A stretch of DNA of 34,048 nucleotides from a virus: positions 1-34,048 of IMG/VR virus record IMGVR_UViG_3300021961_000325, one strand, 5' to 3'. This document shows positions 7,081 to 33,474 of this stretch, piece after piece; positions within the stretch are counted from its first letter, which is position 1; each line of letters starts with the position of its first letter. The translations under genes and the position numbers were made by a program. The notes under the pieces are model-generated. The model worked only from the letters and a program-made list of their open reading frames with translations. It did not search any database and was not told the origin of the DNA.

Positions 7081-7088
7081 TATTTATG
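7081..7088 (-). promoter_or_regulatory. Candidate late promoter for gp8, overlapping the giant gene's stop
   Basis: The minus strand reads CATAAATA, matching NATAAATA. It overlaps the TAA stop of the giant gene at 7084-7086 and lies 16 nt upstream of the gp8-like ATG, a sensible distance for a gp55-type late sigma start. This would let gp8 and the genes to its left be expressed apart from the 12-kb giant. Confidence 0.5.
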
Positions 7089-21630: not shown

Positions 21631-22132
21631 TGTTTGCTCCTGATTCGTTAAAATCAGAACTTTTTACGGGGTTGCTATCCCGTTTTTCAATTATATCATA
21701 GTCATCTTCTAGAATTTCCTTCAAGTAAGAGTCATCCCACATATTATAATAGTCAGTTTTTGCTAAAGTCTCTCTAAATTTACGAAGTTTTTGTTTTGGT
21801 TGACCTAGTATTAGATTATACTTACCATTATTAGTTTGAATACCATTAATGAAGGTATCATAGGTTCCACAATCCTCAAAAAATTTCCAATCTTGATATT
21901 TTGAGTTGCATATTTCAACCCACTCTTGAACCTCCTCAAGATTAAAATGGTCTTCAATGACATATATGATCACATCAAGTCCTACAACCACCTCTATGGC
22001 GCTTGCAGGGCACTCTACGACCTTATATTTGGATCTTGCTGCAAACGGACAAATTGCAAATCCATTCAATTCTTTTCTAACTTTGGATACTTCATGTATC
22101 CACTTAAAAATGTACTGTTCTTTTTCAGACAT
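21611..22132 (-). CDS. Unknown protein with an NGFxxCPFA motif
   Basis: 173 aa from the ATG at 22132. A longer frame back to 22168 exists but runs through a strong terminator, so the ATG that directly follows the terminator's U-tract is chosen. The N-terminal half has HEVSKVRKELNGFAICPFAA (residues about 10-29) and a hydrophobic strand IEVVVGLDVIIYVIEDHF. The GxxxCPFA pattern is reminiscent of DUF1415-like bacterial proteins, a weak resemblance only. The C-terminus is acidic and Ser/Asn-rich. The gene lies just upstream of the 85-aa gene and gp25, in a position kept for small late genes in related phages as far as I recall. Confidence 0.75.
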   Translation of the reverse strand: MSEKEQYIFKWIHEVSKVRKELNGFAICPFAARSKYKVVECPASAIEVVVGLDVIIYVIEDHFNLEEVQEWVEICNSKYQDWKFFEDCGTYDTFINGIQTNNGKYNLILGQPKQKLRKFRETLAKTDYYNMWDDSYLKEILEDDYDIIEKRDSNPVKSSDFNESGANNDQKSR

Positions 22133-22165
22133 AAAAAAAGAGTGCTTAATTCTATTTAAGCACTC
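22133..22165 (-). terminator. Strong rho-independent terminator
   Basis: On the minus strand a perfect 10-bp stem (arms 22140-22149 and 22156-22165, arm sequence GAGTGCTTAA and its complement) with a 6-nt loop is followed by seven U residues (22133-22139). It closes the glycosyltransferase operon. The U-tract runs straight into the ATG of the next gene at 22132. Confidence 0.9.
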
Positions 22166-24193: not shown

Positions 24194-24472
24194 GGCGAGA
24201 GTGGAAGTGTTCATCAGGTCTTGATAATCACGCCACTTCTCTACTGCTTGCTCTAGAGTTTCAACATCAGCAAACAGGTGAAAGTTCTCAGGTAGATCTA
24301 ACTGACCTGTCATACCCAAGTAGTTAATGAACCCCAGGATTTGCATACTTTGGTCATAACCTTCAACGTTGAAGATGCGGTCCAATTCTTCACGACGAAA
24401 ATCAGAACATGCGATCAGGTCGAACACATAGTAGAACGGACGACGAACAGCGTAGGGGATGAAGTTCAGCAT
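24191..24472 (-). CDS. Small phage protein, unknown function
   Basis: 93 aa (MLNFIPYAVRRPFYYVFDLI, then SDFRREELDRIFNVEGYDQS and LEQAVEKWRDYQDLMN). The first 20 residues are hydrophobic and aromatic with two Arg, perhaps amphipathic; the rest looks helical and soluble. No motif recognised. An exact 13-bp sequence (24496-24508) that also precedes the next gene upstream lies 24 nt before its ATG. G+C content is visibly higher than in the structural genes. Confidence 0.75.
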   Translation of the reverse strand: MLNFIPYAVRRPFYYVFDLIACSDFRREELDRIFNVEGYDQSMQILGFINYLGMTGQLDLPENFHLFADVETLEQAVEKWRDYQDLMNTSTLA

Positions 24473-24495
24473 GAAAAGTGTAGTGAAGTGTATCG

Positions 24496-24508
24496 GTCTT
24501 AAGTGTTA
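24496..24508 (-). repeat. 13-bp intergenic repeat, copy A
   Basis: Minus-strand TAACACTTAAGAC, identical at 24766-24778 and nearly so (11 of 13) at 24072-24084. All three lie 6 to 24 nt upstream of start codons (24472, 24758, 24065), so the sequence may be a leader or translation element. Confidence 0.55.
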
Positions 24509-24509
24509 A

Positions 24510-24758
24510 TCAGAAGTCGAACACATCGCTATTGATCTGGATCACATTTACAGCGGGGTCATCGAACCTTACACCATCAAGAGTTTGTGTCATAAACTCA
24601 CTGATAGATTGGACGAAAGACTGATAATCACCTGCCTCACGGGCGATGTTATATAGACCCTCATCATTCTGGATCCAGAGTGCAACATTCCAGGTCTCAT
24701 AATTGCTCCACCCATTATAGGTGGTGTCCTGAATGTTGGTCTGATAAGTGACTGCCAT
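24510..24758 (-). CDS. Small conserved phage protein with NGWSNYETWN signature
   Basis: 82 aa. Residues 14-35 (YNGWSNYETWNVALWIQNDE then GLY) form the signature of a short protein family common in phages and some bacteria (DUF7249 as I recall), whose function is unknown. The acidic C-terminus (FDDPAVNVIQINSDVFDF) is typical for early phage proteins. The gene is preceded by a 13-bp repeat, a 6-bp GC hairpin and the first copy of the 28-bp repeat, so its mRNA may begin with that hairpin. Confidence 0.85.
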   Translation of the reverse strand: MAVTYQTNIQDTTYNGWSNYETWNVALWIQNDEGLYNIAREAGDYQSFVQSISEFMTQTLDGVRFDDPAVNVIQINSDVFDF

Positions 24759-24765
24759 TGTGTGA

Positions 24766-24778
24766 GTCTTAAGTGTTA
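24766..24778 (-). repeat. 13-bp intergenic repeat, copy B
   Basis: Exact second copy of the sequence at 24496-24508, here 7 nt upstream of the ATG at 24758 and just downstream of the GC hairpin. Confidence 0.55.
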
Positions 24779-24780
24779 GC

Positions 24781-24802
24781 GGGGGGTCGTTTGTTGCCCC
24801 CC
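24781..24802 (-). promoter_or_regulatory. GC hairpin in the leader after repeat copy 1
   Basis: Six G residues pair with six C residues (24781-24786 and 24797-24802, 10-nt loop). It begins 3 nt after the TATAGT end of repeat copy 1. If TATAGT is a -10 element the hairpin would sit at the very 5' end of the mRNA and could protect it. It has no U-tract in the minus direction. Confidence 0.55.
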
Positions 24803-24805
24803 TAC

Positions 24806-24833
24806 ACTATAGGTCCACTTTGGAGGTGAGTAA
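24806..24833 (-). repeat. 28-bp early-region repeat, copy 1
   Basis: Perfect 28-bp core, but the flanking base after it differs from the other copies. It lies between the 57-aa gene (24851) and the 82-aa gene (24758), with a GC hairpin between the repeat and the start codon. Coding-strand parts: CTCACCTCC on the 5' side and CTATAGT at the 3' end. Confidence 0.95.
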
Positions 24834-24850
24834 TTTTGGAGCCCTGATAA

Positions 24851-25024
24851 TCACCAACGGTCGGGTGTACTTAAGTCCTCAACGTAAGCATCACACTTTT
24901 CTGCAGGTTCCAACTTGAATAACTTCTCCCAGTCAATTTGATGTGGGTCAAAGTCAGGAAACGCAGAGATGTCTAGAGTGATACGATAACGAACCTTCTG
25001 TGCTTGACTGTATGCTACTGACAT
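24851..25024 (-). CDS. Small phage protein, unknown function
   Basis: 57 aa (MSVAYSQAQKVRYRITLDIS, then PHQIDWEKLFKLEPAEKCDA). The start at 25024 is preferred over a longer frame reaching 25162: it has an AAGGAG Shine-Dalgarno site at 25032-25037 with 7-nt spacing and lies about 20 nt downstream of a near-perfect promoter, while the extension would place the promoter inside the gene. No family recognised; the protein is slightly acidic and soluble. It is the first gene after the gene-free region. Confidence 0.85.
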   Translation of the reverse strand: MSVAYSQAQKVRYRITLDISAFPDFDPHQIDWEKLFKLEPAEKCDAYVEDLSTPDRW

Positions 25025-25051
25025 AAGTACGCTCCTTGTGTTACTGAAAGT

Positions 25052-25080
25052 ATTGTAAGATGCTGAGGCGTTTCTGTCAA
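25052..25080 (-). promoter_or_regulatory. Near-consensus sigma70 promoter
   Basis: Minus strand: TTGACA (25075-25080), 17-bp spacer, TACAAT (25052-25057). The predicted start near 25045 gives a leader of about 20 nt containing AAGGAG. This is one of the best host-type promoters in the window and would serve as an immediate early promoter for the genes to its left. Confidence 0.88.
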
Positions 25081-25155
25081 GGTCTGTGGGGATATTTATG
25101 AGGGTCTGGGAGATTTTATGAGTGCGATTGTGGGGATTTTGTGACGCGGGGGTGC

Positions 25156-25184
25156 TTGACATTTTGCGCAGAGTGTGATAGAAC
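25156..25184 (+). promoter_or_regulatory. Candidate plus-strand promoter
   Basis: Plus strand: TTGACA (25156-25161), 17-bp spacer, TAGAAC (25179-25184; four of six consensus bases). It points against all genes. No open frame of note follows, so any product would be a non-coding or antisense RNA across the AT-rich region. Confidence 0.35.
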
Positions 25185-25210
25185 GACGTTAAAGATCACA
25201 AGACCTGAGC

Positions 25211-25350
25211 ACATTTAAATGACTATAAATGCCACACACAGAGACATTTAAATGCCTTTAATCACCTTATTGAGAATGATTATCAATAACGATTTAAAAC
25301 GCTTATATACATTTAAAAATACATTTTTTATTGATTTCAACACATTTAAA
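25211..25350. repeat. Cluster of ACATTTAAA boxes
   Basis: ACATTTAAA occurs at 25211, 25244, 25309 and 25342; the first two extend to the palindrome CATTTAAATG. A fifth ATTTAAA is at 25292. The spacings of the four full boxes are 33, 65 and 33 bp, about multiples of three helical turns. Such iterons suggest a protein-binding array (replication or regulation). Confidence 0.55.
25272..25290. promoter_or_regulatory. Fur-box-like palindrome
   Basis: GAGAATGATTATCAATAAC matches the classical 19-bp bacterial Fur box GATAATGATAATCATTATC at 15 of 19 positions (my count) and is nearly palindromic. It lies amid the ACATTTAAA boxes. Binding by a cyanobacterial Fur protein is an inference; the AT-rich context raises the chance of coincidence. 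Confidence 0.4.
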
Positions 25351-25374
25351 GCATAAAATAACGTTTTTAGACAT

Positions 25375-25402
25375 AAAAAAAGAGAGGAAACATATCCTCT
25401 CT
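25375..25402 (-). terminator. Rho-independent terminator
   Basis: Perfect 8-bp stem AGAGAGGA/TCCTCTCT (25381-25388 with 25395-25402), 6-nt loop, then a U-tract of six (25375-25380) on the minus strand. It starts directly at the stop of the 41-aa membrane protein gene and closes that operon. Confidence 0.9.
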
Positions 25403-25528
25403 TCATTGATTATCAGTAGCAAAAGATTCGATCCCGTTGATAGCTCTATTACCTAGATTTGCTATCCCATTGAACCCTACTGTTGAAAGTATGATACCAA
25501 TGACTACACCTATCAGGAACTTTGACAT
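25403..25528 (-). CDS. 41-aa membrane peptide
   Basis: Starts MSKFLIGVVIGIILSTVGFN, one hydrophobic segment at residues 4-18 with a Lys before it, then a soluble tail GIANLGNRAINGIESFATDN. This is the pattern of a single-pass small membrane protein, or a weak signal anchor. Its ATG overlaps the stop of the upstream gene (TAATG) and a strong terminator directly follows. Families of this kind are often seen in cyanophages, without known function. Confidence 0.75.
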   Translation of the reverse strand: MSKFLIGVVIGIILSTVGFNGIANLGNRAINGIESFATDNQ

Positions 25529-25656
25529 TACACCAATTCAGCAGGACTTCCACATGAGAGATAGAATTGAACCATCCTCTTTGCTTCATCTAATGTAGAG
25601 AATGACTGTGTTCTCCACTGTTGCTGATAGGGAGTAAAGTAACGGATCTTGAACAT
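25528..25656 (-). CDS. 42-aa protein, unknown
   Basis: MFKIRYFTPYQQQWRTQSFS, then TLDEAKRMVQFYLSCGSPAE. The sequence looks like a small beta-hairpin plus an amphipathic helix, typical of tiny phage proteins that modify host enzymes, but no family is recognised. It sits between the 105-aa gene and the 41-aa membrane peptide. A 16-bp sequence (25669-25684) repeated at 24178-24193 lies 13 nt upstream of the start codon. Confidence 0.7.
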   Translation of the reverse strand: MFKIRYFTPYQQQWRTQSFSTLDEAKRMVQFYLSCGSPAELV

Positions 25657-25668
25657 TTTAAGAATGAA

Positions 25669-25684
25669 GAGTGAGTGTTACTTA
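25669..25684 (-). repeat. 16-bp intergenic repeat, second copy
   Basis: Minus-strand TAAGTAACACTCACTC, identical to 24178-24193. It resembles the 5' part of the 28-bp element (AAGTTACTCACCTCC), so the two families may be related. No TATA box is seen at the expected distance here. Confidence 0.5.
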
Positions 25685-25695
25685 AGAAGAAAAGT

Positions 25696-26013
25696 TCAGT
25701 TCAGACGCATACCAGAGAAGAAAGGAATTGTGCTACCATCAGACATTTGAAACTTCCAAACATAGTTCTTTTGGAATACACATTCGTTACCAATTCCATG
25801 AGCGTGAAGAAGTGCATTAAGACGCGACTTTGTGGTGTTTGATTGCCAACCACCATCGAACAGTTGCATCCAAGTATCACCAATCTTAGCAATCAGATTG
25901 TCATGCAAATAGACTTCAGATACACCTTCGTTGTTAATCACTTTGGTGTTCTTTAGTTTCCAATCAATCTCTTGAATGATTGCCTCATTCATTTGCTTTT
26001 CGATCTTACGCAT
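25696..26013 (-). CDS. Small conserved marine-phage protein
   Basis: 105 aa. The N-terminal MRKIEKQMNEAI and the central YLHDNLIAKIGDTWMQLFDG with GGWQSNTTKSRLNAL are hallmarks of a small protein family widely seen in marine phages, as I recall, without assigned function. The pattern of alternating strands suggests a compact beta fold. The start lies 22 nt downstream of repeat copy 2, and the gene is followed by two tiny genes and a terminator, forming one short cassette. Confidence 0.85.
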   Translation of the reverse strand: MRKIEKQMNEAIIQEIDWKLKNTKVINNEGVSEVYLHDNLIAKIGDTWMQLFDGGWQSNTTKSRLNALLHAHGIGNECVFQKNYVWKFQMSDGSTIPFFSGMRLN

Positions 26014-26035
26014 TTGTGGTTTGAAGTGTGCTTAT

Positions 26036-26063
26036 ACTATAGGTCCACTTTGGAGGTGAGTAA
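26036..26063 (-). repeat. 28-bp early-region repeat, copy 2
   Basis: Perfect copy. It follows the TAA stop of the 46-aa gene (26067) by 3 nt and precedes the ATG of the 105-aa gene by 22 nt. Confidence 0.97.
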
Positions 26064-26066
26064 CTT

Positions 26067-26207
26067 TTATTCGATGGTGATTAGGGGGCCTTGAACATCA
26101 CAAAACTCAGACAAATAATAATCGATTGTGATACCTAACTCATCAGCATACTGTAGATTTTCTTGGTATTGTTCTTGTGTCAGAATATAGAAATTAGTCT
26201 CAATCAT
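26067..26207 (-). CDS. 46-aa acidic protein, unknown
   Basis: MIETNFYILTQEQYQENLQY, then ADELGITIDYYLSEF. It has a strong Shine-Dalgarno site (AAGGAGG) about 10 nt upstream, inside the previous gene, which it overlaps by 8 nt. The repeat copy 2 starts 3 nt after its stop. No family recognised; the acidic, aromatic composition is like other early phage peptides here. Confidence 0.75.
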   Translation of the reverse strand: MIETNFYILTQEQYQENLQYADELGITIDYYLSEFCDVQGPLITIE

Positions 26208-26349
26208 TGTCGATTTGTCCTCCTTTAAGTTCAACATTATCAAGAATAGTTACAACTTGATTTGTTGGAGTAAGGTAGTCAATCTGTAAAACATTCGGTG
26301 CAATTTCAGTAGAACCGATGATCACAGATGCAAGAAGAAGTTCAATCAT
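26200..26349 (-). CDS. 49-aa protein, unknown
   Basis: MIELLLASVIIGSTEIAPNV, then LQIDYLTPTNQVVTILDNVE. The first 12 residues are hydrophobic, perhaps a signal-like or buried segment, and the rest looks like a beta-rich domain. Its ATG overlaps the stop of the 64-aa gene as ATGA, and the codons for KGG near its end double as the Shine-Dalgarno site of the next gene. Part of the four-gene cassette driven from repeat copy 3. Confidence 0.7.
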   Translation of the reverse strand: MIELLLASVIIGSTEIAPNVLQIDYLTPTNQVVTILDNVELKGGQIDND

Positions 26350-26540
26350 TGAATGGTATTGTAAGAAAGAGACTTAATGCACCAACCCATATTGTCGGTG
26401 ATTGTGTTGACTAAATCCTCTTCAGTTGGTGATGTCCAGAGACAAGATGTGGCATCTTCGATGATCTCTTTTTGTTCATCATCTGTGAGATCTTCATCAT
26501 CAAAATCAAACTCAATTTCAGTGACTTTGTAATAAACCAT
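26346..26540 (-). CDS. 64-aa highly acidic protein
   Basis: MVYYKVTEIEFDFDDEDLTD then DEQKEIIEDATSCLWTS. About one third of the residues are Asp or Glu, as in DNA-mimic or enzyme-inhibitor phage proteins, though nothing proves such a role. The ATG at 26540 is chosen; a longer frame begins at 26588 inside the upstream gene. Four nt separate it from the upstream stop, and ATGA links it to the next gene. Confidence 0.75.
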   Translation of the reverse strand: MVYYKVTEIEFDFDDEDLTDDEQKEIIEDATSCLWTSPTEEDLVNTITDNMGWCIKSLSYNTIQ

Positions 26541-26544
26541 TGTA

Positions 26545-26727
26545 TCAGTTACCAAAGAAAGTATCGAACTCTTCTGCAACATAATCAATCAATTCATCAG
26601 TTGCATCAAGATCGAAAAGACAGCAAACAAAGTCTACACAATCATTCAGATCTGTGTGATTGTTGCACATAAACTCCAGAAGTGCAGGAGTAATGTCGGT
26701 TTGAAAGTCGATTGAAGTGTTGCTCAT
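26545..26727 (-). CDS. 60-aa acidic protein, unknown
   Basis: MSNTSIDFQTDITPALLEFM, then CNNHTDLNDCVDFVCCLFDL and a Tyr/Asp/Glu-rich end. It contains four Cys in residues 21-36, two of them adjacent, and is very acidic. The ATG directly abuts the TATAGT end of repeat copy 3, with no room for a leader. It opens a cassette of four overlapping genes that ends at 26067. Confidence 0.75.
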   Translation of the reverse strand: MSNTSIDFQTDITPALLEFMCNNHTDLNDCVDFVCCLFDLDATDELIDYVAEEFDTFFGN

Positions 26728-26755
26728 ACTATAGGTCCACTTTGGAGGTGAGTAA
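26728..26755 (-). repeat. 28-bp early-region repeat, copy 3
   Basis: Perfect copy. It lies 3 nt after the TAA stop of the 54-aa gene (26759) and directly abuts the ATG at 26727. Confidence 0.97.
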
Positions 26756-26758
26756 CTT

Positions 26759-26923
26759 TTATTCCCAGTTAATCAGTGTTGCAATGTTACCTAACTGATT
26801 TTGTTCGTCTACAATCTCCATTGCATGATTGTATGTCTTGACTGAAATATAACGTGCTTTTCCTCTTGTCTCAGGAAACAATCCCAGTTTGTCAATGATA
26901 CGAACTGTGTTTGAATGTTTCAT
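26759..26923 (-). CDS. 54-aa protein, unknown
   Basis: MKHSNTVRIIDKLGLFPETR, then GKARYISVKTYNHAMEIVDE. Basic N-terminal half and an amphipathic C-terminal helix; the YISVKTYNHAMEIV segment could be a short beta-alpha nucleic-acid-binding unit, but this is a guess. ATGA overlap with the upstream 56-aa gene. The stop codon is within 3 nt of repeat copy 3. Confidence 0.75.
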   Translation of the reverse strand: MKHSNTVRIIDKLGLFPETRGKARYISVKTYNHAMEIVDEQNQLGNIATLINWE

Positions 26924-27090
26924 ACTTCGTCTTGCATTTCGGAAAGTTTGTTATAGAGTGCATCGACATCTGTGCCGACTAACTCATTTAATTCATCAGC
27001 ATCTTCATCACTTACGAAGTTATCAGTATGAAACTCAATGAACTTGAGAAGTGCATCAATCTCTTCAAAAGTAAGAGTGGTTTTTGTCAT
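26920..27090 (-). CDS. 56-aa acidic protein, unknown
   Basis: MTKTTLTFEEIDALLKFIEF, then HTDNFVSDEDADELNELVGT and a final helix. Very acidic and probably all-helical. The ATG overlaps the stop of the upstream 89-aa gene (TGATG) and its own stop overlaps the next ATG (ATGA), so it is translationally coupled on both sides. No family recognised. Confidence 0.75.
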   Translation of the reverse strand: MTKTTLTFEEIDALLKFIEFHTDNFVSDEDADELNELVGTDVDALYNKLSEMQDEV

Positions 27091-27359
27091 CAAACTGCAC
27101 CTGCCATGAAGTTGTATTCTTGCACCAGACCAATGTTATCACCAGTGATCACATATTCAAGTGCCAGGCGATCATTGATCTCGCGTTGTGCATCTTTTTT
27201 GGTCAGACACTTTTGAGAGATCGTATCAATACCCTTCCAAGAGAGAACCTTGAGAGTATAGTTGGAACAATCCTCAATGGGATAGAAACCGACGATCATT
27301 GTGCCATCTTTAGACTGGAGAGTAGGAAACTCGATCATCGCGGTTTGAGTGTTGGTCAT
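27090..27359 (-). CDS. 89-aa protein, unknown
   Basis: MTNTQTAMIEFPTLQSKDGT, followed by a likely beta-rich middle (VGFYPIEDCSNYTLKVLSWK) and KKDAQREINDRLALEYV. The ATG directly abuts repeat copy 4. The gene opens a cassette of three coupled genes (to 26759). No motif recognised. Met8 could be an alternative start, but the first codons resemble those of other genes that abut the repeat. Confidence 0.75.
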   Translation of the reverse strand: MTNTQTAMIEFPTLQSKDGTMIVGFYPIEDCSNYTLKVLSWKGIDTISQKCLTKKDAQREINDRLALEYVITGDNIGLVQEYNFMAGAV

Positions 27360-27387
27360 ACTATAGGTCCACTTTGGAGGTGAGTAA
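27360..27387 (-). repeat. 28-bp early-region repeat, copy 4
   Basis: Perfect copy, 19 nt after the stop of the 111-aa gene (27407) and directly next to the ATG at 27359. Confidence 0.97.
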
Positions 27388-27406
27388 CTTTAATTGACGG
27401 AGAGTT

Positions 27407-27742
27407 TCAGTTACGCATCAGAGAAAGTGCTTCATCCTCGCTGATGCTATCTTCAGACAGTTGCACATTACGAGCACAAGAGATTGCATCAGCAAAGTTA
27501 TTAAAACTGCCAAAGGATTTCTGACTACCAGACCAGCAACCTTTGTACTCATAAATCATTGCTTCGACAGAGAATACATCATCTTTCGTATCACGATCTA
27601 CACTGTGCTTGATGTAAACTTTTCCGTCATTTCGCGTGTACTTATCGAAAGTATTGCTCTTGAAAGTACGCTTGAAATCAGTTACAAACTTAGCAGTGAG
27701 ATCAGTATTCTGAGCGAAGAGATTTGCGAAGTGAGCAGTCAT
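27407..27742 (-). CDS. 111-aa protein, unknown
   Basis: MTAHFANLFAQNTDLTAKFV, then FKRTFKSNTFDKYTRNDGKV, a strand-rich centre (YIKHSVDR, SVEAMIYEYKGCW) and an Asp/Glu/Ser-rich C-terminus. The basic N-terminal half and acidic end are clear, but no family is recognised. Start codon 26 nt downstream of repeat copy 5. It forms a one-gene cassette between copies 4 and 5. Confidence 0.8.
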   Translation of the reverse strand: MTAHFANLFAQNTDLTAKFVTDFKRTFKSNTFDKYTRNDGKVYIKHSVDRDTKDDVFSVEAMIYEYKGCWSGSQKSFGSFNNFADAISCARNVQLSEDSISEDEALSLMRN

Positions 27743-27768
27743 TTAGTCGTTTTTCGTTTGTGTCCTAT

Positions 27769-27796
27769 ACTATAGGTCCACTTTGGAGGTGAGTAA
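27769..27796 (-). repeat. 28-bp early-region repeat, copy 5
   Basis: Perfect copy, 7 nt after the stop of the NUMOD-like gene (27804) and 26 nt before the ATG at 27742. Confidence 0.97.
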
Positions 27797-27803
27797 CTTT
27801 TAT

Positions 27804-28259
27804 TCAATCAATTCTTACCCTCTGCGATATATCAATTCCTCTTACTCTTTGATAACTTGTCAATGCTCCTGCGTTAGAAATCTTTCCTGTGATTAAACAT
27901 TTCCATCGTTGATTGCCAACAACTTTACCGCCATTTGTTTGTGCTTTTTTCTTATCTTCCTCACTCATACCAAACAAACCAGTTTTGTTTTGATAATGTC
28001 TTTCTCCCATTATTTTTCCACCTTTAGCATTATCAATGCTCAACTGTTCTTTACTTCTTGCATACATTCCAATCTTATTTTCTATCTGTGTTCTTGCACC
28101 TTTTGGGCCGCCAATCTTTCCTCCTATTCTCCCCGCTCTGCTCTGCAATTCAAAAGTACAATCATCATACATTTTCTCCCATCCATCTGGCATCTCAATG
28201 TAATCTATGCCAGATACGTTGAAACATTCGTTCAACGATTGAACGCTTACTTTATTCAT
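27804..28259 (-). CDS. NUMOD-like putative homing-endonuclease-type protein
   Basis: 151 aa, strongly basic. It contains an internal duplication: NKIGMYARSKEQLSIDNAKG (61-80) continuing to GKIMG, and NKTGLFGMSEEDKKKAQTNG (91-110) continuing to GKVVG. A third related GGKIGG element is at 46-51. This spacing resembles nuclease-associated modular DNA-binding (NUMOD3-type) repeats. The C-terminus (RWKCLITGKISNAGALTSYQ then RVRGID) is one I recall from phage-encoded putative homing nucleases. No GIY-YIG or complete HNH catalytic core is visible, so it may be a degenerate or accessory form. It has its own TATAAATA promoter and lies beside a long inverted repeat, as expected for an inserted element. 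Confidence 0.6.
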   Translation of the reverse strand: MNKVSVQSLNECFNVSGIDYIEMPDGWEKMYDDCTFELQSRAGRIGGKIGGPKGARTQIENKIGMYARSKEQLSIDNAKGGKIMGERHYQNKTGLFGMSEEDKKKAQTNGGKVVGNQRWKCLITGKISNAGALTSYQRVRGIDISQRVRID

Positions 28260-28283
28260 AACTGCTTTATGTTTGGTCTTTAT

Positions 28284-28291
28284 TATTTATA
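28284..28291 (-). promoter_or_regulatory. Consensus T4 late promoter octamer
   Basis: Minus strand TATAAATA, an exact match to the T4 late consensus, 24 nt before the ATG of the NUMOD-like gene. A GATAAATA variant also occurs at 28351-28358 over the stop of the 47-aa gene. Confidence 0.7.
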
Positions 28292-28293
28292 TC

Positions 28294-28318
28294 AAAAGAG
28301 GGACATTTCTGCCCCTCT
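28294..28318 (-). terminator. Weak terminator-like hairpin
   Basis: Six-bp stem AGAGGG/CCCTCT (28297-28302, 28313-28318) with a 10-nt loop, followed by only three or four U residues on the minus strand, then the late promoter. It could end the early cassette that comes from copy 6. Confidence 0.5.
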
Positions 28319-28356
28319 AATGTGCTTGTGCGACCAAACATAAGCACCATTATTTA

Positions 28357-28500
28357 TCATTTGAACGATACATTCACTCCAACAATTTTAGCAGTCGGGT
28401 TTCTGATTTGTGCTGTCTCACGGGCATCTTTTGGAGAGTTAGCATATACTTCCTCTTTGAAGACTTTGCCACCGACGTAGAGTTGAACTTCGTATTTCAT
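28357..28500 (-). CDS. 47-aa protein, unknown
   Basis: MKYEVQLYVGGKVFKEEVYA, then NSPKDARETAQIRNPTAKIV. Looks like a compact beta-beta-alpha-beta unit, similar in layout to small phage proteins with a YxVxLxVGGxxFxEEVYAxSPxDA pattern that I recall from cyanophages. ATGA overlap with the upstream 63-aa gene. It is the last gene of the cassette that begins at repeat copy 6. Confidence 0.75.
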   Translation of the reverse strand: MKYEVQLYVGGKVFKEEVYANSPKDARETAQIRNPTAKIVGVNVSFK

Positions 28501-28688
28501 AGTGTTTGAAACTCCTGTGCTTCTTTGATGTTAGAATTGAAAAACTTTTGCAGAATGGAAGTGATTACAGGTTGCCATTCTTTATCTTTAATTAGGTCAC
28601 GATTTTGTGCTTCAACAAGAAACTTAAGGATGCAAGTCTCTTCGTTTGGAGTGAAGTCAACGCGAGTGAAAGTGTAACCGTCAGTCAT
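28497..28688 (-). CDS. 63-aa protein, unknown
   Basis: MTDGYTFTRVDFTPNEETCI, then LKFLVEAQNRDLIKDKEWQP and a C-terminal helix. The ATG at 28688 is preferred; a TTG two codons upstream (28694) overlapping the preceding stop is possible. Coupled to the next gene by ATGA. No family recognised; predicted mostly helical and soluble. Confidence 0.7.
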   Translation of the reverse strand: MTDGYTFTRVDFTPNEETCILKFLVEAQNRDLIKDKEWQPVITSILQKFFNSNIKEAQEFQTL

Positions 28689-28690
28689 AA

Positions 28691-28858
28691 TCAAACAGGA
28701 AAAACTTCAACAGAACGGATAAGATTTGTGCGATCTTGTGCTAGGTAATCATCAGCGATTTTACCACAAGATGAACGCGATTGAATCAACTTTTCCTCAT
28801 AAAGGTTCTCATCTTCATCAGGAACCCAATACTCAATCAAGAGACGATAGTTGTTCAT
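28691..28858 (-). CDS. 55-aa protein, unknown
   Basis: MNNYRLLIEYWVPDEDENLY, then EEKLIQSRSSCGKIADDYLA and a final strand VEVFPV. Alternating strand and helix give the look of a small ferredoxin-like unit. It starts 2 nt after the stop of the 80-aa gene and ends 2 nt before the next ATG, so it is part of the copy 6 cassette. No known family. Confidence 0.75.
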   Translation of the reverse strand: MNNYRLLIEYWVPDEDENLYEEKLIQSRSSCGKIADDYLAQDRTNLIRSVEVFPV

Positions 28859-28860
28859 AA

Positions 28861-29103
28861 TCAGTACAGAAGAGAGAAAGAACCGCAGAACTTACGAACC
28901 CACTGCAAAGTGTCATAATGACTGCGAGGATTAGACATTACCATGCTCTTGTTAGTTACAGGATTGAGAGCAATAGCAACGTATTTGTGGTCACATTCTT
29001 GATACTCGGGAGTGATTTGTTGAATGAACATTTGCATCACTTTACCTTCTTTCCAGTTTGTGACATAGTGAAAGACTTGATCCATTTCAGTGGTTGTGCT
29101 CAT
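28861..29103 (-). CDS. 80-aa protein, unknown
   Basis: MSTTTEMDQVFHYVTNWKEG, then KVMQMFIQQITPEYQECDHK and VAIALNPVTNKSMVMSNP. The open frame extends upstream to 29151 but that extension only translates the repeat copy 6; the ATG directly next to the repeat is chosen because four other genes start in the same way. A mixed alpha/beta small protein, function unknown. First of four genes in its cassette. Confidence 0.75.
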   Translation of the reverse strand: MSTTTEMDQVFHYVTNWKEGKVMQMFIQQITPEYQECDHKYVAIALNPVTNKSMVMSNPRSHYDTLQWVRKFCGSFSLLY

Positions 29104-29131
29104 ACTATAGGTCCACTTTGGAGGTGAGTAA
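29104..29131 (-). repeat. 28-bp early-region repeat, copy 6
   Basis: Perfect copy, 13 nt after the stop of the 84-aa gene (29145) and directly next to the ATG at 29103. Confidence 0.97.
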
Positions 29132-29144
29132 CTTTTATTCCCTG

Positions 29145-29399
29145 TTACCAAGTGCCTCTCTGGACGTGGATTTTACGGATCTCTTGATAAAGAAACTGAC
29201 GAAGTTTAGGTTCGGTAGTGTTATCAAAAGCATAATATAATCGGTTTAGGTATTCATCTTGTGTTGCACCAATGTTACCATTTCCACCGATCTCATTGAG
29301 TGATGAACCTGCAACAACTTTCGATTTACCAAAGTTACCAGACACACGCCCAGTTGTTCTCAGTTTGGGCTTTATCTTTGAGAGGTTAGAGTAAGTCAT
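29145..29399 (-). CDS. 84-aa basic protein, unknown
   Basis: MTYSNLSKIKPKLRTTGRVS then GNFGKSKVVAGSSLNEIGGN, a Gly-rich basic N-terminal half, followed by an acidic-to-basic helical part (DEYLNRLYYAFDNT, KLRQFLYQEIRKIHVQRGTW). Could bind nucleic acid, but no family is recognised. ATGA overlap with the upstream gene (stop 29396). Last gene of the cassette from copy 7. Confidence 0.75.
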   Translation of the reverse strand: MTYSNLSKIKPKLRTTGRVSGNFGKSKVVAGSSLNEIGGNGNIGATQDEYLNRLYYAFDNTTEPKLRQFLYQEIRKIHVQRGTW

Positions 29400-29653
29400 C
29401 GTGCTACAATGTCCAGAGTTTCCAACAACATCATCGAAAGTTCCATCTGGTTCTCATCATCAACCACAGGAATGTTTGCCTCTACAAACTCACTAATCAG
29501 TTGAGCAAAGAGTTCAGTTGTGCGCTCATCTGCGAATAAAGCAGTGGCAAGTTCATTCTTGAACCCATCACGCAGAAGTTTGAGAGACTTTGTGACAGTC
29601 ATTTCTTTAATTTGTTCATCGTAAGTCATTTCAGTGTCAGGTTTTGTGCTCAC
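29396..29653 (-). CDS. 85-aa helical acidic protein, GTG start
   Basis: MSTKPDTEMTYDEQIKEMTV, then a helical stretch (KSLKLLRDGFKNELATALFA) and MELSMMLLETLDIVAR. The start is GTG overlapping the upstream stop (GTGA); the opening GTG-AGC-ACA resembles the MST openings of other genes here. An in-frame ATG at 29629 is an alternative. Probably an all-alpha protein, function unknown. Confidence 0.7.
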   Translation of the reverse strand: MSTKPDTEMTYDEQIKEMTVTKSLKLLRDGFKNELATALFADERTTELFAQLISEFVEANIPVVDDENQMELSMMLLETLDIVAR

Positions 29654-29826
29654 TCTTCATCCTCTTCATAAGGGAACATTTCGTCGTATTCTTCATCAGT
29701 CAGAGTAAGATACTGAACATCAGCATTTCTATGCTCTTCAGCATACATTAACTGATAATGTGCGAAGTTTGAGGGACTGGTGCTAGCATATTCTAGCAAA
29801 CCATCAACAAAACAAAGATAGTTCAT
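29650..29826 (-). CDS. 58-aa acidic protein, unknown
   Basis: MNYLCFVDGLLEYASTSPSN, then FAHYQLMYAEEHRNADVQYL and a strongly acidic tail (DEEYDEMFPYEEDEE). The ATG at 29826 overlaps the upstream stop as ATGA, so the longer TTG-started frame is set aside. The highly acidic C-terminus is of the type seen in phage inhibitors, with no proof of role. Confidence 0.75.
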   Translation of the reverse strand: MNYLCFVDGLLEYASTSPSNFAHYQLMYAEEHRNADVQYLTLTDEEYDEMFPYEEDEE

Positions 29827-30257
29827 TTGGCGTACAAATACCCCCCGCTCCAATCTGCATTTTCCAGCAGATACTCACGATCTTTGATCAATCGCAGATC
29901 ATAGCGAACACCTTTCGCAGGAGATCTCCAAGTGGCAGACTTATACACTTCGCCAGTTTGCTTATCAATGAAGCAATGAACACTACGCGATCCACCACCA
30001 TTCACGAGAATGACTTTGTGATACTTTTTACCAGTTTCTACCTGATAATCAATGTCACACTTGCCAGACTTGAGTTCTTCAATCTTCTGCTGATGATAAC
30101 CAGGAATTGCATCAAACCTTTCAGCAGAACGTTGGTGTCCACGAATAGAATACTGACGATAATTGTCTTTCAATGCTTCAATCAGCAGCAGAGTGTTCTT
30201 ATACACATTCTCTGCAATGGTTTGTTGTGCTTGTGCTTGCATTGTAAGAGTGCTCAT
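29823..30257 (-). CDS. 144-aa protein, unknown
   Basis: An N-terminal helix (residues 1-60, including KNTLLLIEALKDNYRQYSIR and RSAERFDAI) is followed by a beta-rich domain (KYHKVILVNGGGSRSVHCFI, DKQTGEVYKSATWRSP, then KGVRYDLR). The pattern of VHCFIDKxTGEVYKxAxWxxPAKGVRYDL is one I recall from cyanophage proteins without function. Its ATG directly abuts repeat copy 7 and it leads a four-gene cassette. The strand-rich half resembles a small nucleic-acid-binding fold, but this is unproven. Confidence 0.8.
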   Translation of the reverse strand: MSTLTMQAQAQQTIAENVYKNTLLLIEALKDNYRQYSIRGHQRSAERFDAIPGYHQQKIEELKSGKCDIDYQVETGKKYHKVILVNGGGSRSVHCFIDKQTGEVYKSATWRSPAKGVRYDLRLIKDREYLLENADWSGGYLYAK

Positions 30258-30285
30258 ACTATAGGTCCACTTTGGAGGTGAGTAA
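30258..30285 (-). repeat. 28-bp early-region repeat, copy 7
   Basis: Perfect copy, 6 nt after the stop of the KxDG protein gene (30292) and directly next to the ATG at 30257. Confidence 0.97.
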
Positions 30286-30291
30286 CTTTAA

Positions 30292-31188
30292 TCAAGCCCA
30301 ATTCTTTGCCATATTGAAGTTTGCGCGACTGAATTGGTAGCGATCAACAATCTTCATTGTGCCATAATCGTTTGACATAACATAACCTTCGTGATCACTC
30401 TCATCATCACCAATCTTGCACGAAATGCTATCATCAGTGTGAATGAAGAAGAACAAATCTACCTTGATTGAATACATTAACTTCCACAAACGCAGCAGGT
30501 TGATGTCAACATCATAATTTTCTGCAATTTCATGTTCATCCACCTCCTTACCCTCACGGATGTAGGAATTGATGATTTTTTTGAGTTCTGTTGCTTGTTT
30601 GTTGCTTACAAACTCACAAAGAGTGCTCATTTGCTTAGCAAACTTGCAGATGTCTTCGATGTCCTCACGATGAGGGCAAATAGATGCCTTAGGAGACACA
30701 AACTTGACATAATGAGTATCCGTGATGATAAAGTTCATCGGATACGCAACAGCATCCCTCAGATCATTCTCTGCAATGTAGAATGTATGAGGAGCAATAA
30801 TGATCTCTTGATCTACTACCTCAGGGAACTTGTAAGTGATCGTATTGGGGCGAAAAGTATCAGAACCGCCAAAACCAATAAAATCCCCTTGAAAGATATA
30901 ATCTGTGCGAGGAAGATAATCAAGGCAAGCATGAAGAATAGACGCAACTTTACCTTCATGGTTCGCATCAATTTCATCGTGTGAATGATTGATCTTGATC
31001 TTTACTTTGTTGAAGACAGATTTAGTGCCAACGAAGAACTTACCATTGGCAGGATTGCGACCCCAAACAATAGCAGGAGCACCATCAATCTTGACACTGA
31101 TAGTAGAATCAGCACTGAACCAATCAAGTACAGAAAGATCACCCGTGAGGATCTGATCTTCAGGGTGTTCTAGGTGAGTGTTCTTCAT
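30292..31188 (-). CDS. KxDG nucleotidyltransferase (ligase-like) protein
   Basis: 298 aa. The motifs of the covalent nucleotidyltransferase superfamily (DNA/RNA ligases, capping enzymes) are visible in order: motif I KIDG at residues 33-36 (Lys33 the candidate adenylated residue), a FFVGTKS segment at 51-57, FQGDFIGFG at 99-107, EGYVM at 267-271 as motif IV, and MKIVD at 278-282 as motif V. The long insert at 110-250 is unlike standard ligases. The family is common in T4-like cyanophages (DUF6267 as I recall) without a tested function. A nick- or RNA-repair role is plausible. The ATG directly abuts repeat copy 8, and the conserved opening NTHLEHPED supports this start. Confidence 0.75.
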   Translation of the reverse strand: MKNTHLEHPEDQILTGDLSVLDWFSADSTISVKIDGAPAIVWGRNPANGKFFVGTKSVFNKVKIKINHSHDEIDANHEGKVASILHACLDYLPRTDYIFQGDFIGFGGSDTFRPNTITYKFPEVVDQEIIIAPHTFYIAENDLRDAVAYPMNFIITDTHYVKFVSPKASICPHREDIEDICKFAKQMSTLCEFVSNKQATELKKIINSYIREGKEVDEHEIAENYDVDINLLRLWKLMYSIKVDLFFFIHTDDSISCKIGDDESDHEGYVMSNDYGTMKIVDRYQFSRANFNMAKNWA

Positions 31189-31216
31189 ACTATAGGTCCA
31201 CTTTGAAGGTGAGTAA
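31189..31216 (-). repeat. 28-bp early-region repeat, copy 8 (one mismatch)
   Basis: Single change: plus-strand TTTGAAGG instead of TTTGGAGG. It lies 11 nt after the stop of the 67-aa gene and directly next to the ATG at 31188. Confidence 0.95.
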
Positions 31217-31227
31217 CTTTTATTGCC

Positions 31228-31431
31228 TCAAACTTCCATCAGTTTCTGTAGACGATTGCGAATATCAAAGAGTTCCATATCATCCATATCTACAGCATCA
31301 AAATCTACAGGAGCAAACTCTTCAAGATTTACACTACCATCGGAATAGATGGGAGCATAGTATAGCTCATCTCCATCTTCTTGCGACAGAGTATAAACAC
31401 AACCGTGGTTGGCAGAAGTAACGAAGATCAT
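31228..31431 (-). CDS. 67-aa acidic protein, unknown
   Basis: MIFVTSANHGCVYTLSQEDG, then DELYYAPIYSDGSVNLEEFA and a strongly acidic run (DFDAVDMDDMELFD). A beta-hairpin-like N-terminus and a helical end. An upstream in-frame ATG at 31473 has an AGGAG site but lies within a terminator-like stem-loop; I prefer the internal start because the likely homologous pattern begins FVTSxNxGxxYxLS. The downstream repeat copy 8 follows its stop. Confidence 0.65.
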   Translation of the reverse strand: MIFVTSANHGCVYTLSQEDGDELYYAPIYSDGSVNLEEFAPVDFDAVDMDDMELFDIRNRLQKLMEV

Positions 31432-31457
31432 TGGAGTTTCAGGAACAAAGGTACAAT

Positions 31458-31489
31458 AAAGGAGCACAAGCATAAAAGCAAGTGCTCCT
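31458..31489 (-). terminator. Terminator-like stem-loop
   Basis: Perfect 8-bp stem AGGAGCAC/GTGCTCCT (31460-31467 with 31482-31489), with a further GC pair pair inside the loop, then a weak U-rich tail on the minus strand. It follows the stop of the 88-aa gene by 11 nt. Confidence 0.6.
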
Positions 31490-31500
31490 GTGGCAGTTTA

Positions 31501-31767
31501 TCAAGCGGAACGACGCTTGCTGGTTTTGGTAACTTTCACTGCTTGAGTATCAACAGGAGGCAACACATTTGCATTGACAACCTCATAAACAAATGCAGTG
31601 AAACGATTCATAACAAACAGAGTTTGATTTACAAACTTGCGAACTTTGTTTGCACCATCGTTCTCATTGAATGAACGAATGAAGAACTGAACTACGCCAA
31701 CAAAGATGGCAGAGATGGTAGCAACGTTCTTGACAAGAGTATCAACGAAAGTCCAGTAAAAAGTCAT
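31501..31767 (-). CDS. 88-aa membrane-associated basic protein
   Basis: Opens MTFYWTFVDTLVKNVATISA then IFVGVVQFFIRSF, a hydrophobic stretch at residues 15-30. A helical, basic segment (KVRKFVNQTLFVMNRFTAFV) and a Lys/Arg-rich tail (KVTKTSKRRSA) follow. Probably one membrane helix with a basic cytoplasmic tail. Preceded by a GC hairpin and repeat copy 9, and closed by a stem-loop, so it is a one-gene unit. Function unknown; a role at the host membrane is a guess. Confidence 0.75.
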   Translation of the reverse strand: MTFYWTFVDTLVKNVATISAIFVGVVQFFIRSFNENDGANKVRKFVNQTLFVMNRFTAFVYEVVNANVLPPVDTQAVKVTKTSKRRSA

Positions 31768-31787
31768 AGTTTGGGTTAGAAACTGCG

Positions 31788-31805
31788 GTGGGGAGCGATC
31801 CCCAC
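31788..31805 (-). promoter_or_regulatory. GC hairpin in the leader after repeat copy 9
   Basis: Perfect 7-bp stem GTGGGGA/TCCCCAC with a 4-nt loop, directly next to the TATAGT end of repeat copy 9 and 20 nt before the ATG at 31767. Same arrangement as at copy 1 although the sequences differ. Confidence 0.6.
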
Positions 31806-31833
31806 ACTATAGGTCCACTTTGGAGGTGAGTAA
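31806..31833 (-). repeat. 28-bp early-region repeat, copy 9
   Basis: Perfect copy, 2 nt after the stop of the methyltransferase gene (31836) and 38 nt before the ATG at 31767; a hairpin fills part of the gap. Confidence 0.97.
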
Positions 31834-31835
31834 CT

Positions 31836-32660
31836 TTAATTTGTTTCGTAGTTTGTGATATAAAGGTGCTTTACTTTAGCTCCAGAGTGATCCTTTCCCT
31901 TACCAAATCGTTGAGCATAAGCAAAGTCCTTCTCGATAATATTGAAGTCTTTGTAACTCTCTCGATAGAACTCATGGTCAGAGTGAACAATCATCCATTT
32001 ACCCTTTGTTGCTTTCAGACAACCTAAAAGGTCTTCATGTAGTCTTGAACCACCATCACCCTCAGTGTATCCTAGTCGCTCAAGATAGGGAGGATCAATG
32101 AACACAAAGTCATCTGCATTGATTTCACCAAACAGATCCACAAATGACCCATATCGGAATACACATTGCTTCTTCAGGAAATTGTGATGATCTGGGGTCA
32201 AATTGCACGAAAATCGTTTATAGTGACCGAAGGGTACATTAAACTCACCTTTGGCATTGTATCTTTCCATTCCAGAGAAACACAACTGTCGTACAATAAT
32301 GTATGACAATGCTCTCTGGAGTTGATCTACACAATCCCATGATTGATTGATTGCTTCTCGCGCAGCATAAAACTCTTTCTGAAGATCATCATGCTCCAGT
32401 CCTTTGATACAATCAACCTTTACTTGTAGTTGAGGATAAAGATCCTCATTTGCGACCACGGAGTATAAGTTAATGACATCGCGATTGATGTCACTCATCA
32501 GAGCAGGATAACCCAACCCAAATGATACTGCAGCACCACCACAGAAGGGTTCTACAACCCTTGAAAACTGTGATGGTAGCATTTGTTTGATGAGTGGCAA
32601 TTCTTTACTCTTGCCACCCATATATTTTACAACAGGTTTTAGACAGATGATTGGTTTCAT
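31836..32660 (-). CDS. dam: D12-class DNA adenine N6-methyltransferase (Dam-like)
   Basis: 274 aa, the size of Dam and T4 Dam (259-278 aa). The AdoMet motif PFCGG is at 38-42 (with KYMGGKSK at 12-19), SDINRDVINLY at 56-66, MERYNAKGEFNVPFG at 131-145 and the catalytic DPPY at 189-192. It transfers a methyl group to N6 of adenine, most likely in a short palindrome such as GATC, although the target cannot be read from sequence. It could shield phage DNA from host nucleases. A TTGAAG-17-TATAAT promoter lies just upstream, without a copy of the 28-bp repeat. The gene immediately upstream encodes a PD-(D/E)XK nuclease candidate. Confidence 0.92.
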   Translation of the reverse strand: MKPIICLKPVVKYMGGKSKELPLIKQMLPSQFSRVVEPFCGGAAVSFGLGYPALMSDINRDVINLYSVVANEDLYPQLQVKVDCIKGLEHDDLQKEFYAAREAINQSWDCVDQLQRALSYIIVRQLCFSGMERYNAKGEFNVPFGHYKRFSCNLTPDHHNFLKKQCVFRYGSFVDLFGEINADDFVFIDPPYLERLGYTEGDGGSRLHEDLLGCLKATKGKWMIVHSDHEFYRESYKDFNIIEKDFAYAQRFGKGKDHSGAKVKHLYITNYETN

Positions 32661-32681
32661 AGGTACTCAATCTTTCTCTTA

Positions 32682-32710
32682 ATTATACCATCAAAGACCC
32701 ATTTCTTCAA
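32682..32710 (-). promoter_or_regulatory. Sigma70-type promoter of the methyltransferase gene
   Basis: Minus strand: TTGAAG (32705-32710), 17-bp spacer, perfect TATAAT (32682-32687). It starts inside the end of the nuclease gene; the predicted start is about 15 nt before the dam ATG. This separates dam expression from the repeat-driven genes. Confidence 0.7.
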
Positions 32711-33251
32711 GGATCGGAGCAACAACCTCGCGGAGGAAGGTGAAGTATTCTTCAGCGGTGAAAGGTGCTTGAATGGTCTCAATCATCCAATTCACACCAT
32801 AAACTTCCACGCCTTTGTTGTTATACTTGGTTTTCTCTTTCTTGCTAACTTCTGCAACAACAGGGACAAAATATCCAGACTTGACATTTACACCAAGAAC
32901 GCTGGTAATGTCATTGATCTTGTCATTAGATGCACGAACTTTCTCACTATCAAAGTTGAGATTGCACTTGCTTTCGAGATACCAAGTCTCATCAATTCTG
33001 AACAAATGATCAATCTGACGTGTGCGACCATTCACATCAATCAGATTGCTTTCTTCGATGAGATTTTGTGCCGCCAGACTGTCACTGATAACAGTGTTCC
33101 AGAACTGCTCAATTCTCTCACCGAAAGCAATCAAAATCGACTGAGGAGAAACACGATCATCAAGACCAAGTGCCTGAAGAATGTAAGATTCGGTCTGCTT
33201 TGGTTTGATAGACAGAACCAGCGGCAGTAGGTTTTCTTCTAGGTAGGTCAT
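32691..33251 (-). CDS. Putative PD-(D/E)XK endonuclease
   Basis: 186 aa. A restriction-like catalytic pattern is visible: NGRTRQIDHLFRIDETWYLE then SK, that is Asp81 followed by Glu93-x-Lys95, with an upstream Glu (residue 45) in a helix. The order helix, strand with D, strand with ExK, helix with charged residues (FDSEKVRASNDKIND) is that of type II restriction or related nucleases. Its stop is 30 nt before the dam ATG, so the two form an adjacent pair as in type II restriction-modification systems. It may instead be a repair or host-DNA-degrading nuclease. Starts 16 nt downstream of repeat copy 10. Confidence 0.65.
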   Translation of the reverse strand: MTYLEENLLPLVLSIKPKQTESYILQALGLDDRVSPQSILIAFGERIEQFWNTVISDSLAAQNLIEESNLIDVNGRTRQIDHLFRIDETWYLESKCNLNFDSEKVRASNDKINDITSVLGVNVKSGYFVPVVAEVSKKEKTKYNNKGVEVYGVNWMIETIQAPFTAEEYFTFLREVVAPILEEMGL

Positions 33252-33267
33252 TTTGATTGGTTGCTGT

Positions 33268-33295
33268 ACTATAGGTCCACTTTAGAGGTGAGTAA
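33268..33295 (-). repeat. 28-bp early-region repeat, copy 10 (one mismatch)
   Basis: Single change: plus-strand TTTAGAGG instead of TTTGGAGG. It lies 2 nt after the stop of the 58-aa gene (33298) and 16 nt before the ATG at 33251. Confidence 0.95.
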
Positions 33296-33297
33296 CT

Positions 33298-33474
33298 TTA
33301 ATTGATAGGAAGTTTGCCCAGTGATTTACCCTTTTTGTGGGCATCAATGAACTTTCTAGCTGATGCTTCAGTCCTACACACTTTGAGTTGCTCTCCGTTG
33401 TGAATGACCATCAGTTGCTTACCATAAGGAATGGCAGCATAGTTACCCTTACCGACAATAAATCCTTCCATCAT
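33298..33474 (-). CDS. 58-aa basic protein, unknown
   Basis: Opens MMEGFIVGKGNYAAIPYGKQ, then LMVIHNGEQLKVCRTEASAR and a basic end (KFIDAHKKGKSLGKLPIN). Beta-rich front and helical, Lys-rich end. The double ATG overlaps the upstream stop (ATGATG over TGA); either Met may be used. The YGKQLMVIHNGEQLKVCRTEASARKFI pattern is of a type I recall from small cyanophage proteins without function. Confidence 0.75.
   Translation of the reverse strand: MMEGFIVGKGNYAAIPYGKQLMVIHNGEQLKVCRTEASARKFIDAHKKGKSLGKLPIN

Follow-up and report, generated by a model that had tools for sequence, protein, structure and literature searches.

The promoter-early stem-loops (PeSLs) of T4-type phages were reportedly described by Arbiol et al. 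in 2010 and Comeau et al. in 2014, and Doron et al. are said to have found, in 2016, a novel early-gene regulatory element in Syn9 and other T4-like cyanophages. PeSLs are presented as repeated cassettes with early-type promoters between small genes, where recombination shuffles genes, and their density in cyanophage S-PM2 is put too low to explain the gene gain of that phage (PMC4503421). T4-type early promoters carry GTTTAC at -36 to -31, an A-rich stretch at -44 to -40, and a conserved A at -11 and T at -7 (PMC1524935). Repeated intergenic elements of 58 and 29 bp in halovirus HF2 have been tested as promoters (PMC8707807). Here we describe a 28-bp intergenic sequence that is repeated ten times in the virus record IMGVR_UViG_3300021961_000325 of IMG/VR, positions 1 to 34,048 (34,048 nucleotides, hereafter the window), and that probably serves as a promoter specific to the phage, with a short leader of its own, standing before cassettes of small genes on the minus strand.

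A repeated element between small genes

An earlier note on the window, made from its letters, had listed ten copies of the 28-mer, eight of them perfect and two with one change, all on one strand, none left of position 24806, and each set between a stop codon 2-19 nt away and a start codon 0-47 nt away. A mismatch search bears out this description: with at most three mismatches allowed, the 28-mer has ten matches in the window, all on the plus strand and exactly at the ten positions listed (Table 1), of which eight are exact and two, at 31189 and 33268, have one mismatch each, with zero matches left of 24806. The chance expectation, from 100 dinucleotide shuffles, is 0. The distances from the stop codon of the upstream gene and to the next start codon were likewise reproduced. 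Because the genes that flank the copies lie on the minus strand, the functional sense of the element is the reverse complement of the listed 28-mer, and the plus-strand sense (GGAGGTGA, CACTATAGG) is ruled out by gene strand and by the spacing on the opposite strand. In sense, the element reads AATTAAAG-TTACTCACCTCCAAAGTGGACCTATAGT-RTRAGCAC, so that the conserved unit, from AATTAAAG through RTRAGCAC, spans about 44 bp rather than 28 bp, with a weak AANTT in addition at -19 to -15. Positions are numbered here along the core, 0 to 27, with TTACTC at 0-5 and TATAGT at 22-27; GTGGAC occupies 15-20 in all ten window copies.

A looser form of the element, defined by AAA at 12-14 and at most four mismatches over the other scored positions, has 425 unique copies in 99 loci, including the window and the phages SynMITS9220M01 and S-B05. 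Column conservation was taken from 422 copies with full flanks, and is to be read with the proviso that the search pattern favours the core columns. Nearly invariant are columns -4, 0, 3-9, 24, 25 and 27, as well as 12-14, where the AAA is demanded by the filter; within CTATAGT, positions 22, 23 and 26 vary and 24, 25 and 27 do not. At position 28, outside the search pattern, every one of the 422 copies has a purine, and position 29 is T in 401. Upstream of the core, an A-tract at -8 to -2 and a weaker AA.TT at -19 to -15 are spaced by about one helical turn. Downstream, C stands at 33 in 291 copies and A at 34 in 319, after which conservation fades into a G-poor leader.

Start codons and leaders

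Two features of the element are odd, namely that the TATAGT box is often fused to an in-frame ATG, and that some bases are fixed within phage lineages yet differ between them. With respect to the first, the distance from core to start codon is sharply fixed over 421 copies: the start codon follows TATAGT directly (offset 0) in 142 and lies 14-22 nt away in 215, offsets 1-13 being nearly empty (8 copies); it is found further on in 45 copies and not found in 11. When the triplet at 28-30 is ATG (144 copies), the frame stays open for at least 38 codons in 142, as against 98 of the 277 copies with a different triplet. In 71 of the 421 copies the fused ATG is followed by no second in-frame ATG within ten codons; the next element is known for 58 of these, 15 of which head a cassette of that one gene. 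The family model DUF6267 matches the protein encoded at 30292-31188 of the window from residue 3 onwards in a profile search, so that the fused ATG is needed. The DUF6267 gene and the other fused-ATG genes without a second ATG indicate that RNA carrying these bases is translated.

Four copies have GTG, itself a potential start codon, at 28-30, two of them in front of the same gene, and in all four the GTG lies in a stem that begins at that base; a stem begins there in 25 of the 405 copies with GTA, ATA or ATG. Across the 437 copies scanned for stems, with G-U pairs allowed, stems of at least 6 bp beginning within the first seven leader bases occur in 18, some of them rich in G-U pairs. U-run terminators were not seen in the clean leader stems of these 18 copies, the scan covering the leaders. 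On inspection of the sequence, the leaders are without Shine-Dalgarno sequences.

Distribution among related viruses

The exact 28-mer is present in 33 IMG/VR stretches and a degenerate pattern matches 97, and a 22-base part of the 28-mer has no exact match in bacterial or archaeal genome contigs. Over 6517 bp (locus L015) and 1515 bp (locus L033), the window shows 100% identity to the contig IMGVR_UViG_3300021962_000279, and three more copies further upstream in L015 show that the array extends past the window. Thirteen isolate phage records were scanned whole, a reversed control pattern giving 0-2 matches per record. All ten copies of SynMITS9220M01 lie at 36.3-50.0 kb of 190 kb, and all 11 of RB11-B at 159.6-171.3 kb, within 12 kb; S-B05 has 14 copies, 12 at 31.7-40.4 kb and two near 156-157 kb. 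The element was not found in the whole records of S-CAM8, S-WAM2, DSL-LC02, S-PM2, P-SSM2, S-CRM01, P-SSP7, P-HM2 and S-SKS1. With copies confined in three of 13 isolate records and absent from most others, the element is thus neither randomly scattered nor universal among T4-like cyanophages. The earlier note had proposed a search of related cyanophage genomes, and had held that placement at random sites would speak against its reading; no such scatter was seen, the copies being confined to small-gene regions in the three isolates.

In Syn9, the longer pattern with at most three mismatches had no match, and the shorter pattern had one match with three mismatches inside a coding gene, which is chance-like. 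Neither the first 100 kb of Syn9 nor its full record yielded a convincing instance of the motif when scanned, and weak likenesses such as AAGTGTCCACTATCGG were judged to be chance. Syn9 (L044/L045) has a repeat of its own, TCGTGTATTCTATAAGAGTCAAAG, before small genes at 46337, 48606, 51048 and 53044, three copies being exact and one having three changes; it is unlike the present element and is perhaps its counterpart. Within the library searched, topical literature searches listed no paper on the element, and a search with four sequence strings returned a single unrelated zebrafish paper.

Bases fixed within lineages

Over the 28 positions, copies of the same genome differ on average at 2.9, compared with 4.4 for copies before orthologous genes in other genomes. 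Among pairs from diverged genomes (n = 1752, which are non-independent), the orthologous copies were the more different in 1221 and the less different in 509. The columns contribute unequally to this likeness. In clade I, made up of 39 groups with 257 copies, differentiation is high at position 18 (0.86), at -2 (0.77) and at 19 (0.64), and low at 10 (0.01) and 30 (0.10); in clade II (9 groups, 121 copies) position 17 alone stands out (0.60), the clades being assigned by a rule of our own on positions 16-17. A larger lineage signal at 16-18 comes in part from a one-base register shift between the two clades and is smaller within each. General gene conversion should even out all columns, and it is thus possible that the fixed bases have a co-evolving reader, plain descent under constraint being the alternative.

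Recombination at the element

Over the 2000 bp that lead up to an element, the loci L014 and L022 share 99.95% identity. Beyond the element, 500 bp of L014 match at 100% identity the L022 DNA located 3,856 bp further along, and are unrelated (31%) to the L022 DNA that directly adjoins. The element of L014 combines the left flank of the first L022 copy with the distinctive bases of the second, which places the junction inside the element. On this alignment the two loci differ by a 3,856-bp block, and either state could be the older. Similarly, the window matches L028 at 99.94% over 4960 bp, a stretch that reaches 15 nt beyond the copy at 29104. After that point the two carry different genes, until similarity returns after 230 nt (93% over 69 bp, where L028 ends).

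Over all loci, the element zone takes in 123 of the 522 right-hand alignment ends and 110 of the 512 left-hand ones, as compared to 5.5% for random positions. A strict non-homology filter kept 248 of the 1034 alignment ends, and under it breakpoints occur at 49 of 447 element-bearing gene starts and at 46 of 930 others. The suggestion in the earlier note that the copies form a recombination seam is supported by these comparisons, in that a junction lies inside the element, near-identical genomes exchange genes at it, and breakpoints are modestly enriched; the element would then be a seam as well as a probable promoter.

Promoter function and competing explanations

The geometry of the element resembles that of sigma-70 promoters. 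A/T-rich upstream promoter (UP) DNA, consisting of AANTT and AATTAAAG, would precede TTAC in the -35 region; TATAGT, 16 bp after TTACTC, would be the -10 box, and transcription would begin at the C-A step, some 7 nt downstream of that box. The cassettes would be switched on together, probably early and probably by host RNA polymerase, and transcription from upstream copies probably runs on through tandem cassettes as well, yielding RNA that contains the box-fused ATG. If genes with a fused ATG depend on read-through, the most upstream copies are expected to be without one, as is the case in the arrays of SynMITS9220M01, S-B05 and L015. Near-identical, closely spaced copies may recombine, whereby whole cassettes would be lost, gained or swapped, each keeping its promoter, and this modularity may be of use to the phage. 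The earlier note had taken the element for a regulon signal of an early or middle class. Fixed orientation, the sharply fixed start-codon distance and the confined placement all favour a regulon signal; an early or middle class is a matter of inference, and 'early region', as the array had been labelled, is a guess from gene content.

Several observations count against a sigma-70-like promoter with a short leader. TTACTC is a poor -35 box, no more than 321 of 378 copies have A at the equivalent of -11 (position 23), and the box is mostly TAGTAGT in L023 and L111. A start near 34 excludes the fused ATG from the promoter's own RNA, which leaves the 71 copies mentioned above without an alternative ATG, and the array of L082 begins with two fused-ATG copies, contrary to the gradient that read-through predicts. 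As for the seam, the enrichment of breakpoints is modest, with relatedness ignored (Fisher p 9e-5, odds ratio 2.4), and the block that distinguishes L007 and L032 has one edge without an element in L032. Two other promoter layouts were rejected: if TAAAGT is taken as the -10 box and the start is put within TTACTCACC, no conserved -35 stands at the right distance, and the hairpin of an N4-type promoter is, by inspection, not kept in SynMITS9220M01 or S-B05.

The fused ATG would be accommodated if RNA started at 26-28, directly at TATA(G)T, as with T7-like and mitochondrial single-subunit polymerases. The RNAs would then be leaderless, their 5' end lying at the AUG or 2 nt from it, or would have a leader of 14-22 nt, and a phage factor that varies between lineages would read the bases before the box. 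A start at 26-28 fits the start-codon and hairpin data better than a start at 34, given the unbroken purine at position 28, the open frames behind ATG together with the nearly empty offsets 1-13, the stems at all four GTG triplets (two of them before one gene) and the need of the DUF6267 gene for its fused ATG. Position 18, fixed within and different between lineages, points in the same direction, as does CTATAG, which matches the core of the T7 promoter at -5 to +1, although positions 22, 23 and 26 vary among the copies. However, read-through RNA would account for the same start-codon data, the most conserved bases lie upstream of the region that such a polymerase reads, and the C-A at 33-34, which looks like a transcription start, is left unexplained. 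The single-subunit polymerase profile PF00940 found no match in any of eight T4-like records (SynMITS9220M01 and S-B05 among them, RB11-B left out), with a positive P-SSP7 control, although a very divergent enzyme could escape it; tblastn of the P-SSP7 enzyme against all the DNA gathered for this analysis (30 kb in the case of S-B05) was also negative. Two open reading frames of 782 and 578 amino acids beside the SynMITS9220M01 array were considered as polymerases and set aside, both matching tail or structural families. A start at 26-28 thus seems rather unlikely. A more specific proposal, which we regard as unlikely, has leaderless early mRNAs, a box that abuts the RNA start, and a lineage-specific base code before the box, read by a co-evolving phage factor, so that a single 44-bp module would unite start codon, promoter and recombination seam; candidates for the factor would be an unrecognised polymerase or an initiation factor carried in the virion.

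Two further explanations dispense with a promoter at each copy. The block could be transcribed from upstream and the element act in RNA, as a processing site or a translation-initiation signal, in keeping with the tight spacing to start codons, the in-frame ATG, the hairpins directly after the core in some leaders and the want of Shine-Dalgarno sequences; but the A/T blocks at -19 to -15 and -8 to -2, about one helical turn apart, appear to resemble UP elements, which act at the DNA level, and no fold is conserved, the window hairpin UCCA-AAG-UGGA being lost in SynMITS9220M01 and S-B05 by inspection. Action in RNA is for these reasons quite improbable. That the element has no regulatory role, and is a selfish or merely recombinogenic repeat that spread through the gene region, would account for junctions at the element and for copies being more alike within a genome than before orthologous genes elsewhere. 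Yet such a repeat would hardly be expected to keep a single orientation and a fixed distance to the start codon, or to be retained before orthologous genes in diverged phages, and homogenisation is incomplete, since columns 10 and 30 vary within genomes and 18, 19 and -2 do not. We consider a repeat of this kind very improbable.

A phage-specific promoter with a built-in leader is therefore still our preferred explanation, and the array gives a base-level view of how T4-like cyanophages rearrange their many small genes of unknown function. A cassette that is gained or moved would retain its control signal if it is joined within an identical promoter-like element, and a single pattern is enough to detect such modules in metagenomes. 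Which polymerase or factor reads the genes becomes directly testable through two features of the element, its fused start codon and its lineage-fixed bases, in the isolate SynMITS9220M01 on Synechococcus MIT S9220.

Genes and other repeats in the window

Pfam names four of the ten scanned window proteins, a Dam-type methylase (PF02086), DUF6267, DUF7717 and Kyano_Gp96, and six of the ten match PHROGs, mainly families of unknown function; such names are no proof of early expression. An open reading frame of 151 amino acids between two elements (27804-28259, minus strand) has no Pfam or PHROG match at E 0.01. Another, of 3982 amino acids (7084-19032, minus strand), corresponds by position only to a SynMITS9220M01 gene annotated as baseplate wedge initiator.

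Other repeats also occur in the window. A 21-base sequence, TTTT-AGACATAAAAAAAGAG, is present twice, at 22122-22142 and 25364-25384, with 95% identity, and the second copy is followed by an inverted repeat GAGAGGA...TCCTCTC, where the DNA is AT-rich and plausible genes are few. Where the array ends on the left, a 37-base repeat at 24472-24508 and 24742-24778 (70% identity, with TCTTAAGTGTTA in common) precedes two adjacent small genes and is perhaps a different leader motif.

Table 1. Element copies and associated features of the window, in the direction of transcription
Feature	Position	Strand	Remarks
Element copy	33260..33303	-	core 33268-33295, one mismatch; start codon 16 nt past core
Element copy	31798..31841	-	core 31806-31833; leader hairpin directly after core
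Leader hairpin GTGGGG-ATCGCT-CCCCAC	31788..31805	-	starts at first base after TATAGT
Element copy	31181..31224	-	core 31189-31216, one mismatch; ATG fused to core
DUF6267 gene	30292..31188	-	ATG fused to copy 31189 is the only start codon nearby; single-gene cassette, element directly follows
Element copy	30250..30293	-	core 30258-30285; ATG fused, with another in frame 15 nt further along
Element copy	29096..29139	-	core 29104-29131; ATG fused; site of gene swap relative to L028
Element copy	27761..27804	-	core 27769-27796; start codon 26 nt past core
Element copy	27352..27395	-	core 27360-27387; ATG fused
Element copy	26720..26763	-	core 26728-26755; ATG fused, no second ATG nearby
Element copy	26028..26071	-	core 26036-26063; ATA triplet; start codon 22 nt past core
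Last element copy in transcription direction	24798..24841	-	core 24806-24833; start codon 47 nt past core
Leader hairpin GGGGGG...CCCCCC	24781..24802	-	behind copy 24806

Comparison with known systems

The element said to have been found by Doron et al. can be likened to the present one by description only, the present sequence being unconvincing in Syn9. The repeats of HF2 belong to an archaeal virus and are alike in arrangement only.

The closer comparison is with T4-type early promoters, which the element resembles, though it may not be one. Set against the features of those promoters (PMC1524935), TTAC ends 18 nt before TATAGT, the same spacing as theirs, and the A-tract at -8 to -2 would fall at about -42 to -36 if RNA started at 34, so that an A-rich UP stretch is present; both have (G)TT(T)AC in the -35 region and a TAT-rich -10 box, and both stand before small genes of unknown function. 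The element differs in being far more conserved over about 44 bp, in the shortening of GTTTAC to (G)TTAC, in its variable -11, and in its fused start codons and lineage-fixed bases.

Unlike PeSLs, most copies of the element come without a stem-loop or terminator, and many have the box and the start codon fused. Since the stem-loop is mostly missing, the element is not classed as a PeSL; nor did the whole-record scan find it in S-PM2, where PeSLs are sparse. As in PeSL cassettes, however, recombination between copies of the element appears to shuffle the genes that lie between them, as the junctions of L014 with L022 and of the window with L028 suggest, together with the enrichment of breakpoints.

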